59,837 bases of DNA from Clostridia bacterium (GTDB lineage: Bacteria > Bacillota > DAOUPZ01): positions 1 through 59,837 of the forward strand of contig DAOUPZ010000023.1 of the NCBI GenBank assembly GCA_030625885.1, in the 5' to 3' direction. Below, piece after piece: positions 1 through 29,598 of the stretch (within the stretch, counting starts at the first letter, position 1; every line of letters begins with the position of its first letter). The position numbers and the translations under genes were made by a program. The notes under the pieces were generated by a model. It did not search any database. It was not told the DNA's origin and saw only the letters and a program-made list of their open reading frames with translations.

Positions 1-3000
1 GGTGTATCTATTCCGTCACCACTGATAGTGAATACATTGTCCACTACTGGTGCTATTACACCGATGCCTATTACATTTGTACAGCGATTGTACCACGTAC
101 TCGTACCATCATCATAATTACGATAGATTCTTATTGAGGAATGGTTTCCATCATCGTCTACATCATCTATTTCCACACCTTCTACTTCATAAGTAACTAA
201 ATAGTCATCTGAACTGATTTCCGCTATCGGCACTGTCAAGCATGCTCCCATAGGTATATCTTCAAACCCATCTGTGGTGGTAATCTTTATCTCTAAATCT
301 GTTCCTGTTATGCCTGCTTCTGTTAGTAATGTACTCAGCAATACACCTGTACAACTTTCGGCTTCATCTACACTTTTATGCAGATAGGATGCTGTTGTTG
401 CTGTCATTCCTTTTAACGCATCCATTGTATATCCAATTGGTGTATCTATTCCGTCACCCGTTAATGTGAACACCGTATCTGCAGCTTCAAGTACCGGCGC
501 TTCATAATCGCCTGTTCCAACTACAATGCAATCTGTCCATTTTACCCACATGGAGTTGTTTTCTTCCACAACCAAACGTAAGGGTCCGAACTGATTGCCA
601 TCTTCGTATCCAGTGCTGTCAGTTTCTGGTACCAGCGGATACCCGTCCGTAGCATATGCTAGAATTATATCCTTGATTACCCCCTGGCTATTTTCCTTGC
701 CATACATCACTTGATCTATGTCACTGATTATTTGATTATAGTTGCTACCGCTAAATACTCGAATACTACTTGGAGTAGTTACCCCATCCTTTAACTCAAC
801 AACGTTATTAATTAAGTTCCATAATATAACACCTTCCAAATCATGCAGTCCATCTCCAGTATATGTACTGCGAATAATATGATCATTTAATGCTTCTAAT
901 TGCTTAAGGGTGAAAGTCCGCGGCTCTTTTACTTCAGAACCCGTTACACGCAGTACCGCTTGATCCTGATACTCCGAATAAAGACCATGATCATGCTTCC
1001 AACTTGTTCCTTCCTCTGCTTCGATGATTATTTCTACCACATCTTTAATACAATTTCCACTATTATCAAAATCAGTATTATCTTTTTGCCCAATAATTAA
1101 CTGCAGAGGCCCACCTTTATTATGAGCATCAGAACTGTAACCATCAGATTCACTACCAGGAACAAGCGGTAAATTGTTTTTACCATAAGCTAACATTACT
1201 TTTAAATCATTTGCATTGTTATCTGTATTTATATAATCGGCTTTTGCTATTTCTTCTAATGTAAATGTTTTGCTGAACTCATCACTAGCAACTATTGTCA
1301 CTCCACTTGCAGTAGCCTGCAACCCTACTTCTTGGCGCAAATATTCATACAAATTAATCCCGCGATATATATCACTATATCCTTCGGTGCTGCTTTTTGC
1401 TAGATAGTAATCATCTGTCATAATATAATTCTGCAGCGCTTCCACTTCATTTACGGTTAAAGTCTTAGAAGTACGAGCACCATCACCATGAATGGTTAAT
1501 GTCTGCGTGCCATATGTATTATACGGCGAAGTAAGATGTGCCCATTCATCTGTCTGAATTTTAACAGTAATTTCTTGAACGTTACTCATAATCAATCCCG
1601 GAGTAGCCGTAGTAGTTTGTCCAAAAATAACGCCTAACGGGCCACCGTCATTATGTTCAGCATATCCTGCTGCATCTCTATCCACAACCATAGGGTACCC
1701 ATTTTTGGCAAACGCCAGTACCGGCTTCATATTCTCCGCATCAGTAACTTCATTATTATAATTAGCATTTCTGATATCTTCCAAAGTAACCGTTTCCATA
1801 ACGCCTGAGCTATCTTTAAACGTTACTGTCCCCGTTGTCCCCGGTAAGCCAACTTGTTCGCTCAATAGATACCAAATGCCTACCCCTTCGTATAAATCAC
1901 AAATTTTATTACCATTGTACTCTTTAACAAAATAGGAGTCCTTAACACGAGCTTTGTCAGCTTCTGCTTCTGCTACAGCATAAACCATATCTTCGATATC
2001 CTTAACTGTCCAATCTTCCTGTTTAAGCAATGTGTCGTTATCATCTACTACTTTAACGGTAACCGGACTAGCAGCATCGGTATCATACGGTGCATAAGAA
2101 TGTATGCAATAATCAGCATCATTGCCAATAATTATTTTTTTTGCAAATTGAACCTGATTGGAGCCGTTGGTATCATTATAATCTTTTTTACCGGAAATAA
2201 TGCGCAGCGGACCGCCATCATTTCCTATTCCTGCAATGTATCCTTCATCGGCCGGACGTGATACATAAGGATAGCCATTAAACCCATATGCCAATAAAAC
2301 CGGGCACCCTGTTTTTTCAGGCTGGATATTGGAACCATCAAAAGAACCATCACCCAGATCTGCTGGATCTTTTTGATAATAACCATACTGGGAAGCATCT
2401 TTAATATCTTTAATTGTTTTTGGCTGGAATGCATAGTTGTCAGCTGCAATAAATTGTACCGTTGTATTTTCATCTATACTAGCATCCAGTCCAGCATCAA
2501 GCAGCAAATCCCATAATTTTACACCTTTATAATCATTATAGTACCAGTAATTCTCACTGTTGGAGAGACTGTAGCGATCTTCATACTGAATATCTATCAT
2601 TGCTTCAAGATCCGCTACCGAATAATTCTTTTCATGTCCCAATCCAGAGCCAGTTATAGTAACAAGATAATTCGTTAAATCAGGATTATTGTACGGCACT
2701 TGATCATGCTCATAATGACTCTCAGATTTGGTTACGTATATTTTATTAACCCGTGAAAATTCTACCGCCTGCTCATCAGCAGTTGCTTGTCCGACAACCA
2801 GTTTAAAAGGCCCATTGTCATTCCCTTTGTCAGCGTCATAACCAACATCAGTGTTGCTATATACCAAAGGCAGTTCATTAACACCGTATGCGACTATCAT
2901 CTGCAGGTTATTAGCTTCAGTTGTATTGTTCAAATAATCCGTTTTACGAACTTCATCTAATGTATATTCTCCAATATCATTTCCTGATTTATCTTTAAAA

Positions 3001-4364
3001 ATGACAGTTTGTGCATCTGATGTCAATGTTACAAAATTATCAAGCAAATAGGAAACAGTAATTCCCTCATAAGTGTTCTGCTTTGCTTCACCAGCAATGC
3101 TTTCTGCATAAGTACCCCGGAACAAACCATCATTTGCCTCTTCTATCTGAGGTACGGAAATAGCTCGGTAATTTTCCACTCCCGGTCCTTCAATTGTCAA
3201 CGTAGCAGTAGTAATATCATCAATATTATATGGGTTTCCTTCATTAGTATAGGTGATATGTTTATACGGACTAGTGGTAAAGTCTATATCTTCACTTCCA
3301 TCAATACGAATGCCAATAATGTTTTTGAATACCGTGTTAAACTCATTTTCCGTCTTAAGCTTACGGTAAATACGCAATTCTTTATTGATACCGTCATACG
3401 CTTCCCCATCAACTTCATATGCCAGTACATATTTTAAGCTTGGATTTTTAATATCTTCCTGTTTTTGCGGATCTATGGGATATGTATCTGCATCACTGTT
3501 AATAAATTGAACATCTGCGTCTTGATTTGCGATCCCTACTACATCCTGCAGGATATAACATAAATCTACGCCTTTGACATGGACTGTTTTTGAACCGCTA
3601 CTGCTGTTATATTGATAATCTTCATCTATTTGATATGCCGCTGGCATTGCTTTAAGCTGCGCGATGGTAAATCCTGTTTCAGTTGCAACACCATTACCAT
3701 CTATTGTGATAACTACGGGGCGTTCTTCGCCAACAACAATGCGAACCAAATCTCTTGCCCAACCAGATTGATTGGTATCATCAATGCTCTGTTGCCCAAA
3801 CACAGCTCGAGGTCTATGATCATCCAAATCGCTTTCCGTTAATTCCCGGTCCTGGCTCTGCCAATCCACTGGCGGATTAAAGACTTCCTGACCAAGGGAT
3901 ATCAATTCAGCTTTATAAAAATCTATCATTGGCGCAACAATCTGCCCACTTGCTTCCGTAAAGTCTGAATAATAGTACGCATTCTTTAATTCACTTACTG
4001 TTCTATGAGTTTTAAAAGTATCCAAGCATTCAAATGTTACGGTATAATCTTGATCCGTTTTTAAATTAGCTTCACCAATCAAAGAAAAAAGGTCATATCC
4101 TTTAGCTTTCGTTATCTTATGAAAACTCCAAGTATTATTGGAAGAATAATACCTCTCTACCATTTCAGTTTTATGTTCTTCCCAATATGATTCATGAATA
4201 ATGACATCTTGCTCAAGGCCTGTCCCTGTGATGGTCAGTACAACCGGATCTTCCTCCGCCCACGCCGTTTGCGGCGTAACCATTCCAAAAAATCCCGCGA
4301 TCATACTTAAAACAAGCAAACAAGCCAAAAATTTATTCCATCCTGCTTTTCTCATCATTTGCAC
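1..4364 (-). CDS. Secreted repeat protein of degenerate molybdopterin-domain-like units (partial, runs off left edge)
   Basis: An uninterrupted minus-strand frame of about 1450 codons continues past base 1. I chose the GTG at 4364 because GGGAG lies about 8 nt upstream; ATGs at 4358 and 4355 are alternatives. A signal peptide is clear: basic MRKAGWNK, a hydrophobic core, then a TAWA/EE cleavage site. The mature part holds at least eight units of 170-200 residues starting near bases 4250, 3715, 3210, 2665, 2060, 1510, 960 and 470, and a ninth starts near 40. Each unit runs: beta strand with TGxG, 'LxELxAM', 'GVxLxxLL', 'VxF', 'LAYGxNGxPLV', 'GYxxxxxNxGGPLRLVxGQ', and a closing 'VxxIxV'. This order is that of the sulfite oxidase/YedY molybdopterin domain, but I see no cysteine where the Mo ligand should be. 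I infer a structural or binding surface protein rather than an enzyme. The C-terminus, and any cell-wall anchor, is outside the window. Confidence 0.8.
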   Translation of the reverse strand, partial: MQMMRKAGWNKFLACLLVLSMIAGFFGMVTPQTAWAEEDPVVLTITGTGLEQDVIIHESYWEEHKTEMVERYYSSNNTWSFHKITKAKGYDLFSLIGEANLKTDQDYTVTFECLDTFKTHRTVSELKNAYYYSDFTEASGQIVAPMIDFYKAELISLGQEVFNPPVDWQSQDRELTESDLDDHRPRAVFGQQSIDDTNQSGWARDLVRIVVGEERPVVITIDGNGVATETGFTIAQLKAMPAAYQIDEDYQYNSSSGSKTVHVKGVDLCYILQDVVGIANQDADVQFINSDADTYPIDPQKQEDIKNPSLKYVLAYEVDGEAYDGINKELRIYRKLKTENEFNTVFKNIIGIRIDGSEDIDFTTSPYKHITYTNEGNPYNIDDITTATLTIEGPGVENYRAISVPQIEEANDGLFRGTYAESIAGEAKQNTYEGITVSYLLDNFVTLTSDAQTVIFKDKSGNDIGEYTLDEVRKTDYLNNTTEANNLQMIVAYGVNELPLVYSNTDVGYDADKGNDNGPFKLVVGQATADEQAVEFSRVNKIYVTKSESHYEHDQVPYNNPDLTNYLVTITGSGLGHEKNYSVADLEAMIDIQYEDRYSLSNSENYWYYNDYKGVKLWDLLLDAGLDASIDENTTVQFIAADNYAFQPKTIKDIKDASQYGYYQKDPADLGDGSFDGSNIQPEKTGCPVLLAYGFNGYPYVSRPADEGYIAGIGNDGGPLRIISGKKDYNDTNGSNQVQFAKKIIIGNDADYCIHSYAPYDTDAASPVTVKVVDDNDTLLKQEDWTVKDIEDMVYAVAEAEADKARVKDSYFVKEYNGNKICDLYEGVGIWYLLSEQVGLPGTTGTVTFKDSSGVMETVTLEDIRNANYNNEVTDAENMKPVLAFAKNGYPMVVDRDAAGYAEHNDGGPLGVIFGQTTTATPGLIMSNVQEITVKIQTDEWAHLTSPYNTYGTQTLTIHGDGARTSKTLTVNEVEALQNYIMTDDYYLAKSSTEGYSDIYRGINLYEYLRQEVGLQATASGVTIVASDEFSKTFTLEEIAKADYINTDNNANDLKVMLAYGKNNLPLVPGSESDGYSSDAHNKGGPLQLIIGQKDNTDFDNSGNCIKDVVEIIIEAEEGTSWKHDHGLYSEYQDQAVLRVTGSEVKEPRTFTLKQLEALNDHIIRSTYTGDGLHDLEGVILWNLINNVVELKDGVTTPSSIRVFSGSNYNQIISDIDQVMYGKENSQGVIKDIILAYATDGYPLVPETDSTGYEDGNQFGPLRLVVEENNSMWVKWTDCIVVGTGDYEAPVLEAADTVFTLTGDGIDTPIGYTMDALKGMTATTASYLHKSVDEAESCTGVLLSTLLTEAGITGTDLEIKITTTDGFEDIPMGACLTVPIAEISSDDYLVTYEVEGVEIDDVDDDGNHSSIRIYRNYDDGTSTWYNRCTNVIGIGVIAPVVDNVFTISGDGIDT

Positions 4365-4480
4365 AAATTTCTCTCCCTTCGTCGTTGGTTATTGCTTATT
4401 TGAATTTACCAAAACATTAAACGGCAAATCACCTCCCTATCTATTTAAAAATTAATAAATTAATATAAAATAAATCATAA

Positions 4481-4627
4481 AAAAATAAGCAAACCGTGTT
4501 TGGTTTGCTTGTATAAAAATGATCTCCTTTCCAAACACGGGAGGCCATGCCGTTTCCAGCACCACCTATCGCTTTACCGTCATAGGATTTCCCTTTAGAA
4601 CAGTAAAGTCGGAGAAATAGCTATTCT
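4481..4627 (-). promoter_or_regulatory. Structured leader with mutually exclusive terminator and antiterminator (candidate riboswitch)
   Basis: On the minus strand, a hairpin with a GAAA tetraloop (TGCTG/CGGCA, 4547-4560) and a CCTAT/ATAGG stem are followed by CCGTGTTTGG (4531-4540). That decamer is exactly complementary to CCAAACACGG at 4494-4503, which is part of an intrinsic terminator (arms AAGCAAACC/GGTTTGCTT, 4487-4510, then a U-run). Pairing of the decamers would disrupt the terminator. A CUUUACUG segment near 4612 can also pair with CGGUAAAG in the apical loop near 4577. The class is not identified: motifs only loosely recall c-di-GMP-I or Moco RNAs. The target is the repeat surface protein, whose start is about 120 nt downstream of the terminator. 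Confidence 0.6.
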
Positions 4628-4687
4628 TTTTTAATAATAAATTAATAAACAAATTACATTTCACAGTTATATTTTCTATGCAAAATA

Positions 4688-5437
4688 CTAATTTCCTTCT
4701 AATAATGACAATTTTTTCATCATCTTTATGCTTTCAATACCCTCTCGCAGCACATTTTCCTGCTGCGGCCTCCGCTTAATCGTTTCCTCTAACGCTTGAA
4801 TGATATAACACCAGACTCGTTCCTCTATCTTTCTACCCGTTTCTTTCTGGTAATATCTTATCAACGCCTCAACGATAGCAAACTTCCATTCCGCAAACGA
4901 GGGGTCATTATTCAAAATAAAACTACATAATTCCCCCAAATCGCGAGCCGGATCCCCCCAATGCTTGCTTTCAAAATCAATCCCGTAAAATTCATTTTCA
5001 TAATAAATAAAATTACGCAAATTCGCGTCCTGAATCAAAAGTACTTTTCCTGCTTCATTTAAGGTTAACTGATGGTAACTTGCCAACCAAACAGCCAATC
5101 TCTCAATCCACCTATTGCTATCACTCTGACGTTTTCCCAGTAGATCTACAAGTAATACCCCTGGAATATATTCCATAACAATCATCCCCGGAATATGCCA
5201 AATAACCTGCGGTACACCCATACGATGCATTAATAAACAACGCAACACATTGGCTTCTTCTCTACTTTTAACCTCATCCATAATCACTTTAACGACGACT
5301 TTTAGCGTCTGACCCGTTTTAAGCCGTACATCAACACCATACACCTCATTACGCCGACTAAAAAAATGTTCAACATTTAATATCTTCTCAATCTCCGGCC
5401 ACTGCATCAATTTTTCCTGCCATTTTTCCCCTTGCAT
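4688..5437 (-). CDS. Kinase-fold protein (APH/KdkA-like)
   Basis: This 249-residue soluble protein has protein-kinase-like fold signatures. An N-lobe 'VVVKV' lysine strand (about residue 48) is followed by a hinge 'MIVMEYIPG', a catalytic loop 'IQDANLRNFI' (about residues 135-145), and a metal site 'GIDFE'. The catalytic-loop histidine seen in aminoglycoside phosphotransferases (HGDLHPGN) is Gln here, while Asp and Asn are kept, so activity is plausible but unproven. A GGAGG Shine-Dalgarno precedes the ATG. It lies 30 bp downstream of the molybdate transporter gene in the same direction, so the two are probably co-transcribed. Its substrate cannot be told from sequence; small-molecule, lipid A/sugar or protein kinase activity are all possible. 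Confidence 0.6.
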   Translation of the reverse strand: MQGEKWQEKLMQWPEIEKILNVEHFFSRRNEVYGVDVRLKTGQTLKVVVKVIMDEVKSREEANVLRCLLMHRMGVPQVIWHIPGMIVMEYIPGVLLVDLLGKRQSDSNRWIERLAVWLASYHQLTLNEAGKVLLIQDANLRNFIYYENEFYGIDFESKHWGDPARDLGELCSFILNNDPSFAEWKFAIVEALIRYYQKETGRKIEERVWCYIIQALEETIKRRPQQENVLREGIESIKMMKKLSLLEGN

Positions 5438-5467: not shown

Positions 5468-6580
5468 TTAGTTCCCCTTCTTCCTTTCAACCAAATAATA
5501 AAACGCCATCCCTGCTGCATACCCCGCTGCCATATTGAAAACAACTGCCAGAACCGTCGTAAGGAACAAACTCTTGACGCCCTCCTGATCAACCCCTTTA
5601 GTCAATTTACCCAGTTCAATACCCACAAACAGCATCATAGCGCCCACAATGCTCATAGGAAAAATAGTAAATAAATTTTTAATCGATTGGGCTAGAAACA
5701 GTCCTAACCCTACTTCAATCAGACCCTCCATAATGGCTGACCCTCCCGTACGGGCCCCAAAATAGTATTGTCCTGCCAATCCCCCTGCACCATGGCACTG
5801 GGGCATACCGCCAAACAGCGGAACAATTAAATTCATAAATCCCATATTCAGCATTAATTTCTTTTCTGAAATTTTCTGATCTGCCTGCTCCGGAAAATAT
5901 TCCCGCAGAAGTGCTGCCGTGGCAATCACCGCATTAGACAACGTTAACGGCATCTGGGCAATACCCGCTAAAACAAAACCTTCATAAATATTTTTAAGAG
6001 AGGGTAATGTAAAATGCGGAAAGCTAAAGGAAAATTGGACAATATGCTTCATATCATGTTGAAAGAACATGATCCCAATACCAAGACCCATTAACACAAT
6101 TGAAGCCGGTAATTTCTCATTTTTCCCTAATAAAATGAGAACTATAATGGCAATCAGGCCCAGAGCAACGCCCGCATCATTGATCATTTTAATCCCTGAC
6201 CACGCCAATGTAATTCCTAAAGCCAGCTGGATCCCCCGAATCACCGGTTTAGGCGTTATTTTGACCAGTTTATTGACCAAACCAGAAAAAGCAATGATCA
6301 CCCAGGTAAATCCCAGCGCAATCCCGGTTCCCTGCACCATCGCCGGATTCCATTTATCCGCAATCGCAATGGCTGCGACTACTTTTTTAGGCTGCAAGGG
6401 CATCGGTAAATTGTAGATGAATCCTAATGTTATATTCGAGAGTCCAAACATAATCAGCATGGAAGCTGGATCCATTTCCACCACTACAATATAACCAATG
6501 ACTAGCGGAAGCAGCGTACCAAAATCCCCCATCGATCCCGCCAATTCCCTAAGCGAAAATTCATAACCTCGTATCTTCAT
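5468..6580 (-). CDS. MOT1-type molybdate/sulfate transporter
   Basis: This 370-residue polytopic membrane protein has about 10-12 hydrophobic segments. It opens with 'FSLRELAGSMGDFGTLLPL' and later has 'PMPLQPKKVVAAIAIAD' and 'GGMPQCHGAGGLAGQYYFGARTGG', which are the two signature blocks of the MOT1 molybdate transporter family (SulP-related, without a STAS domain). Length fits the family. GGAGG lies just upstream of the ATG. High-affinity molybdate uptake is the family role and would feed the Moco genes at 28.6-34.6 kb. Sulfate or another oxyanion is possible, but the near-invariant Gln/Pro-rich motifs favour molybdate. About 600 bp without genes lies upstream. Confidence 0.85.
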   Translation of the reverse strand: MKIRGYEFSLRELAGSMGDFGTLLPLVIGYIVVVEMDPASMLIMFGLSNITLGFIYNLPMPLQPKKVVAAIAIADKWNPAMVQGTGIALGFTWVIIAFSGLVNKLVKITPKPVIRGIQLALGITLAWSGIKMINDAGVALGLIAIIVLILLGKNEKLPASIVLMGLGIGIMFFQHDMKHIVQFSFSFPHFTLPSLKNIYEGFVLAGIAQMPLTLSNAVIATAALLREYFPEQADQKISEKKLMLNMGFMNLIVPLFGGMPQCHGAGGLAGQYYFGARTGGSAIMEGLIEVGLGLFLAQSIKNLFTIFPMSIVGAMMLFVGIELGKLTKGVDQEGVKSLFLTTVLAVVFNMAAGYAAGMAFYYLVERKKGN

Positions 6581-29113: not shown

Positions 29114-29598
29114 TGATCCTCCGCGCGCTTATAAAGACCACTTTTCCCACCTGATTTTTCCATTAACCGAATATCTTTGATGATCATCCCACGATCAATG
29201 GCTTTACACATATCATAAATGGTTAAAGCAGCTGTAGAAACGCCTGTCAGTGCCTCCATTTCCACACCTGTCTTTCCTGTAGTCCGTACACGACATTCAA
29301 TCTCAATCTCTGACCTTTCTGCTATGGTGTGAAAGTAAACATCAACACCGGTCAGCATAAGTGGATGGCACATGGGTATTAAATGCGAAGTCTGCTTAGT
29401 TGCCATGATTCCCGCCACACGGGCAACCCCTAACACATTCCCTTTCGCCATATTCTGATCTATAATTTGTTCAAATGTTTCTGGTTTCATCATAATTGAA
29501 CCCTTTGCGATAGCTTGTCTTGTCGTATCCTGCTTACTTGAAACATCTACCATCCGCGCGCGTCCTTCTTTATCAAAATGGTTCATGTCTTCCATCAT
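29110..29598 (-). CDS. moaC: Cyclic pyranopterin monophosphate synthase MoaC
   Basis: This 162-residue enzyme has 'MVDVSSKQDTTRQAIAKG', 'KGNVLGVARVAGIMATKQT', 'LIPMCHPLMLTG' and 'VGMEALTGVSTAALTIYDMCKA'-like sequence (here VEMEALTGVS). It turns the MoaA product into cPMP, the first pterin of Moco synthesis. It starts on the last base of moaA, so the two are translationally coupled. Confidence 0.96.
   Translation of the reverse strand: MMEDMNHFDKEGRARMVDVSSKQDTTRQAIAKGSIMMKPETFEQIIDQNMAKGNVLGVARVAGIMATKQTSHLIPMCHPLMLTGVDVYFHTIAERSEIEIECRVRTTGKTGVEMEALTGVSTAALTIYDMCKAIDRGMIIKDIRLMEKSGGKSGLYKRAEDQ

Follow-up and report, generated by a model that had tools for sequence, protein, structure and literature searches.

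A switch-like leader on the reverse strand of the window (i.e., the whole stretch of 59,837 nucleotides analyzed here) precedes a gene for a large surface protein, which raises two questions: what the RNA senses, and why a surface protein should be placed under its control.

Class and structure of the leader RNA

An earlier note had described the leader as a transcription-attenuating riboswitch of unassigned class in front of the surface protein. The switch and its position were retained, but the class can be assigned. A cmscan search of the whole window matched positions 4626-4508 (-) to the Moco RNA family (Rfam RF01055; 68.6 bits; E = 1.9e-14), one of the candidate families named for an Infernal check. 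The alignment spans positions 1 to 135 of the model, with the P3 positions deleted. The other named family, the c-di-GMP riboswitch (RF01051), had no match at E ≤ 10 within positions 4300-4800 in the covariance model search. A c-di-GMP riboswitch was rejected because no family of that kind matched even at this threshold, and a new riboswitch class was rejected because the RF01055 score is almost twice the gathering cutoff of 36 bits. The leader belongs to an established class and the RNA itself is ordinary, as had been foreseen in the event of a confident match. Its parts are as follows, the last four being based on the Rfam alignment and an alignment of the copies from the same genome:

4508-4626 (-): Moco-family (RF01055) aptamer, P3-lacking form (cmscan and own-genome alignment of 17 copies)
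4524-4614 (-): aptamer core closed by P1
4614-4611/4527-4524 (-): P1
4608-4601/4579-4572 (-): P2, CUUUACUG paired with CGGUAAAG
4566-4557/4552-4543 (-): P4, with a GAAA loop at 4556-4553

In the Rfam alignment, stem P3 is absent between P2 and P4. The GNRA-type loop on P4 is the GAAA at 4556-4553 (-), the tetraloop hairpin already noticed from the sequence, and its receptor lies in P2 (bulge CUAAAG...UAUG). The predicted pairing of an upstream segment with a loop segment is also borne out, corresponding to P2. A further stem that had been drawn, CCUAU/AUAGG, falls outside the RF01055 consensus: CCUAU is part of the P2 side bearing the GAAA-tetraloop receptor, and AUAGG falls within J2/4 and the 5' strand of P4 (Rfam alignment). 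Both segments are conserved for the aptamer, with which their pairing to each other would compete.

Regulski et al. (2008, PMC2408646) found Moco RNAs without P3 in organisms that have genes for the tungsten cofactor (Tuco) and put forward, without biochemical demonstration, that such copies sense Tuco. The ligand of the present leader is probably Tuco. The same genome carries a gene for a tungsten-type enzyme (AFOR_N/AFOR_C) behind another Moco RNA copy, as well as a TGA-containing PF00384 gene.

Terminator, antiterminator, and direction of the switch

Three elements at the 3' side of the leader bear on how the RNA may control transcription:

4531-4540 (-): antiterminator 5' strand CCGUGUUUGG, which is the aptamer P5 region (exact 10-nucleotide complement of 4503-4494; present in the minimum free energy [MFE] fold)
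4494-4503 (-): antiterminator 3' strand CCAAACACGG, overlapping the terminator stem and loop (complementarity and MFE fold)
4487-4510 (-): intrinsic terminator AAGCAAACC(AAACAC)GGUUUGCUU followed by AUUUUUUUA (stem energy, -11.4 kcal/mol)

The exact 10-nucleotide complementarity to a terminator segment, which the earlier note had taken as the hallmark of a switch, was confirmed between 4540-4531 and 4503-4494 (-). Of 400 dinucleotide-shuffled versions of the region, 4 contained a perfect complement of at least 10 nucleotides, and the whole leader folds better than 200 of 200 shuffles (z = -4.8). When the two states were forced, energies of -48.5 kcal/mol (aptamer plus terminator) and -49.7 kcal/mol (antiterminator) were obtained, a gap of ~1 kcal/mol that lies within the error of the energy model. 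The MFE structure of the unbound leader already holds P2 and P4 alongside the antiterminator. Because the aptamer's P5 segment doubles as one strand of the antiterminator, the ligand should release the terminator (i.e., an OFF switch); this direction is read from the geometry, since the two energies differ by less than the model can resolve and riboswitches make their decision while the RNA is being transcribed. When the cofactor is scarce, CCGUGUUUGG would quit the aptamer and pair with CCAAACACGG, so that the terminator would be blocked and the gene read; when the cofactor is bound, P1 and P5 would retain the CCGUGUUUGG strand, the terminator would form, and transcription would end. An ON switch, in which the ligand-bound aptamer promotes read-through, would suit the closeness of the two energies and an unbound fold in which P2 and P4 already stand, leaving only P1/P5 to change, but it is improbable given that the antiterminator strand sits in the very P1/P5 region needed by the aptamer, from which the ligand should free the terminator.

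The controlled gene and the fold of its product

The gene behind the leader runs to the end of the contig:

3-4364 (-): controlled gene for a secreted protein, 1,454 amino acids up to the contig end (open reading frame [ORF]; PF00174, 64.6 bits)

Its product begins with what resembles a signal peptide and contains about eight sulfite-oxidase-fold (SUOX-fold; PF00174-like) domains. A PDB sequence search with one surface protein matched its S-layer domains and gave no match for its SUOX part, and a homologue search of the genome contigs with the surface protein returned one weak unrelated match. In an alignment of 22 SUOX domains from this genome, no Cys is conserved, the metal-ligating one included, for which reason a sulfite oxidase enzyme was judged unlikely.

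An AlphaFold2 model of the domain family (pLDDT, 88.6; first sequence, L050:14879-15346) had PruR (7kom) as its best Foldseek match. With VIA-align, SoxCD (Z = 14.0) and PruR with neopterin (Z = 12.9) came close to a tie; the PruR match (7rkb) had an rmsd of 2.5 over 120 residues, and sulfite dehydrogenases scored equally. PruR is itself without the metal-ligating Cys and binds pterins (review PMC13259868).

Neighboring genes and the likely operon

On the other side of the leader, two genes lie on the same strand:

4688-5437 (-): APH/RIO-type kinase gene (PF01636), with homologues that recur in the ECF-SUOX module elsewhere
5468-6580 (-): MOT1-type molybdate transporter gene (PF16983, 187 bits)

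At its left end, the window shares ~210 bases, one of them mismatched, with the beginning of another contig of the assembly (C38); this overlap lies inside a tandem repeat, and the surface gene probably continues onto C38. This join of contigs C34 and C38 is supported by the arrangement in another genome (G015), whose single contig has a Moco RNA followed on the same strand by consecutive SUOX genes and finally the ECF genes. After the surface gene, C38 encodes an S-layer-homology protein, ECF ATPases and a T subunit, MobB, and a purple-acid-phosphatase-like protein; further along it encodes additional SUOX-fold proteins and one that binds FMN, together with an ECF S subunit of the YkoE type (PF09819) and a small protein resembling SUOX. 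The operon that is switched off would thus comprise S-layer-anchored SUOX-fold surface domains and would probably extend into the ECF importer and MobB on C38.

Other Moco RNA copies in the genome

RF01055 matched 17 sites in the genome, 16 of which scored above the cutoff. All 17 copies lack P3, and 20 of 27 pairs in their alignment show a compensatory change. A terminator lies downstream of 16 of the 17. A significant P5-terminator duplex was detected in 9 copies and was not detected in 7 of 16, the duplex test being crude and some of the terminators probably mispicked. The large size of this set is not new, since Syntrophomonas wolfei had already been reported to carry at least 15 Moco RNA copies; D. 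hafniense carries 8 (PMC2408646). At one further locus (C10), a Moco RNA is found with a FecCD-type ABC transporter, recognized by sequence inspection, and with further SUOX surface proteins.

Several copies stand before genes of other kinds. Directly behind five P3-less copies (genes at L013:5000-6964, L013:14975-16681, L019:4269-6074, L017:5351-7207, and L021:4075-5700) are three methyl-accepting chemotaxis receptors, a PAS-GGDEF-HD protein, and an HD-domain protein, which suggests that chemotaxis or signaling is under cofactor control via those copies. The weakest copy (L023:7567-7686 [-]; 35.5 bits, just below the cutoff) has no terminator within 140 nucleotides behind it and precedes ferredoxin-like and aldehyde-ferredoxin-oxidoreductase-like genes, possibly acting at the level of translation. 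Another copy (L010:7135-7250 [+]) has a good terminator and no same-strand ORF of at least 80 amino acids within 1.5 kb downstream, suggesting a candidate orphan or antisense-acting RNA.

Distribution of the module across the phylum

The comparison was made at the phylum level; collections at the family, order, and class levels contained the genome of the window alone. RF01055 was detected in 71 of 119 phylum genomes and the SUOX domain in 21 of 119, and SUOX clusters repeatedly adjoin Moco RNAs on the same strand (G015, G060, G021, G064, G048, G095, G036, and G103). A search with the S subunit was positive for 60 of 348 genomes. Moco RNAs were present in 27 of 65 S-subunit regions, against ~0.6 expected by our own estimate from the densities in the 119-genome scan; more than half of the regions have no Moco RNA inside the stretch examined. 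Judged by eye, P3 is absent from 28 of 29 module-linked Moco RNAs (i.e., that of the window, that of G015, and 27 more). The sole one that apparently has P3 (L191:7392-7529) adjoins an S subunit of the divergent kind, in a genome without MoaC.

The gene content of these regions is consistent. Among the 32 regions with a strong S-subunit match, EcfA was found in 30, EcfT in 29, SUOX genes in 26, MobB in 23, a kinase related to that at 4688-5437 of the window in 14, and a nucleotide pyrophosphatase in 11. In a divergent group of 19 regions, the S subunit and the SUOX domain are fused in one open frame in 16, and a phosphatase is present in 13; one such fusion, at L124:5387-6421, combines PF09819 with PF00174. 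Considered jointly, the riboswitch class, the transcriptional OFF logic, and the association with this module are likely to be correct.

Two further features of these regions were observed. MotA/ExbB-type proton channel genes occur in SUOX clusters at L113:13188-13826, L118:11869-12830 (followed by a DUF2149 gene), L117:12458-13403, and L120:1610-2263, the L117 and L120 calls being made by sequence inspection. The interval L116:6509-8237, which separates a SUOX cluster from an ABC transporter, contains a tandem array of three Moco RNAs on one strand plus two copies on the opposite strand.

MoaC-less genomes that carry the module

MoaC was not found in 19 of the 60 S-subunit genomes. In 12 of these 19, enzymes of PF00384, a molybdo/tungstoenzyme family that also covers proteins without molybdopterin (e.g., NuoG), scored above the cutoff. 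In 7 of the 12, including G094 (a single contig, 99% complete), the PF00384 enzymes include one with an in-frame TGA of the kind seen in selenocysteine formate dehydrogenase, which favors formate dehydrogenase in these seven genomes. A strong S-subunit match was obtained in 11 of the 12, 8 of which have a Moco RNA in the region. Some module-bearing MoaC-less anaerobes may therefore depend on scavenged cofactor. The genome of the window is not an auxotroph, since it has MoaC (window positions 29146-29553). MoaE, detected in 8 of the 60 S-subunit genomes, is missing from most MoaC-positive ones too and thus says nothing about auxotrophy, nor could it serve as a marker to separate import of cPMP from that of molybdopterin; its distribution hints at a divergent or different molybdopterin synthase in these anaerobes.

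Possible function of the regulon

Taking the fold, the fusion, the neighborhood, and the absence of MoaC together, our best inference is that the regulon serves the riboswitch-repressed uptake of a molybdopterin-type cofactor or precursor. We tentatively propose, with a probability of roughly 45%, an as yet undescribed system for taking up molybdopterin or Mo/W derivatives of it, which is marked by a P3-less Moco riboswitch and would operate as follows: (i) Cys-less SUOX-fold domains at the cell surface would bind the pterin; (ii) a secreted pyrophosphatase or phosphatase would trim the captured pterin; (iii) an ECF transporter whose S subunit resembles YkoE and is fused to a SUOX domain in some lineages would import it; and (iv) the kinase and MobB would rebuild the cofactor inside the cell.

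It is possible, if rather unlikely, that under the same riboswitch the module imports tungstate or molybdate, with the SUOX-fold domains binding the oxyanion and the ECF transporter carrying it. Known Moco RNAs precede molybdate transporters (PMC2408646). Other Moco RNAs of this genome precede ABC transporters that, on sequence inspection, seem to be of the oxyanion type, and the MOT1 gene adjoins the leader element; however, the domains share the fold of pterin binders, and the linked MobB, kinase, phosphatase, and pyrophosphatase genes fit an organic phosphorylated cofactor. Moreover, the module occurs in MoaC-less genomes, where the metal alone would be of no help. YkoE-type S units handle thiamin precursors, and we know of no ECF system for oxyanions.

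Less likely still, the surface proteins could be cell-surface enzymes or electron transfer proteins that use Moco or Tuco and are switched by cofactor supply. SUOX enzymes need a Cys to hold the metal, which is not conserved among the 22 domains, with an OFF switch the enzyme would be shut down just when its cofactor is abundant, and the domain is fused to a transporter subunit; these points weigh against the similarity to PF00174, the FMN_bind and ApbE genes in some clusters, and the P3-less RNAs reported near putative sulfite oxidases in Syntrophomonas wolfei (Regulski et al., PMC2408646).

If uptake of a molybdopterin-type cofactor is the correct reading, the regulon may account for those S. 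wolfei "sulfite oxidase" exceptions (PMC2408646). The RNA adds a further P3-less Moco riboswitch to those known, and the genome that carries it has an unusual number of copies. What looks new is the placement of a Moco RNA ahead of surface proteins and an importer apparently built for cofactor scavenging, in many related anaerobes. No description of a bacterial importer of molybdopterin or Moco was found in the literature searched, and the conserved riboswitch-headed set, in which a Cys-less pterin-type fold is joined to an ECF S subunit, provides a concrete candidate. This set, found in genomes that encode Mo/W enzymes yet lack MoaC, also allows the exchange of cofactor within anaerobic communities to be tested.

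Comparison with known systems

With the P3-lacking "Tuco" subgroup of Moco RNAs (PMC2408646), the leader shares the full-length model match, the GAAA tetraloop and its receptor, the absence of P3, and the downstream terminator. It differs in that a multidomain, Cys-less SUOX-fold surface protein is under control, and no connection with an ECF importer turned up in the covered sections of PMC2408646 or in the literature searched.

The SUOX fold, secretion, and the missing metal-ligating Cys are common to the surface domains and PruR (PDB 7KOS and 7RKB). PruR, however, is a single-domain signaling partner of DcpA in Proteobacteria, whereas the domains described here are repeated S-layer or lipoprotein domains that lie beside, or are fused to, an ECF S subunit. 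Their sequences are 13 to 20% identical to PruR, and the Trp residues that PruR uses have no conserved counterpart in our domain alignment.

The Isd haem-capture system of Gram-positive bacteria combines repeated surface-anchored cofactor-binding domains with an importer and is off when supply is good. The likeness is an analogy only: repeated surface domains and a supply-repressed importer are common to both, but no family is shared, and the fold, cofactor, and regulator differ.

YkoEDC-type ECF transporters (PF09819) have in common with the present importer an S subunit, two ATPases (sometimes fused), and a T subunit. In contrast to YkoEDC, thiamin genes were not seen here; instead, a SUOX domain lies beside or is fused to the S subunit, and MobB and a Moco RNA are linked to it.
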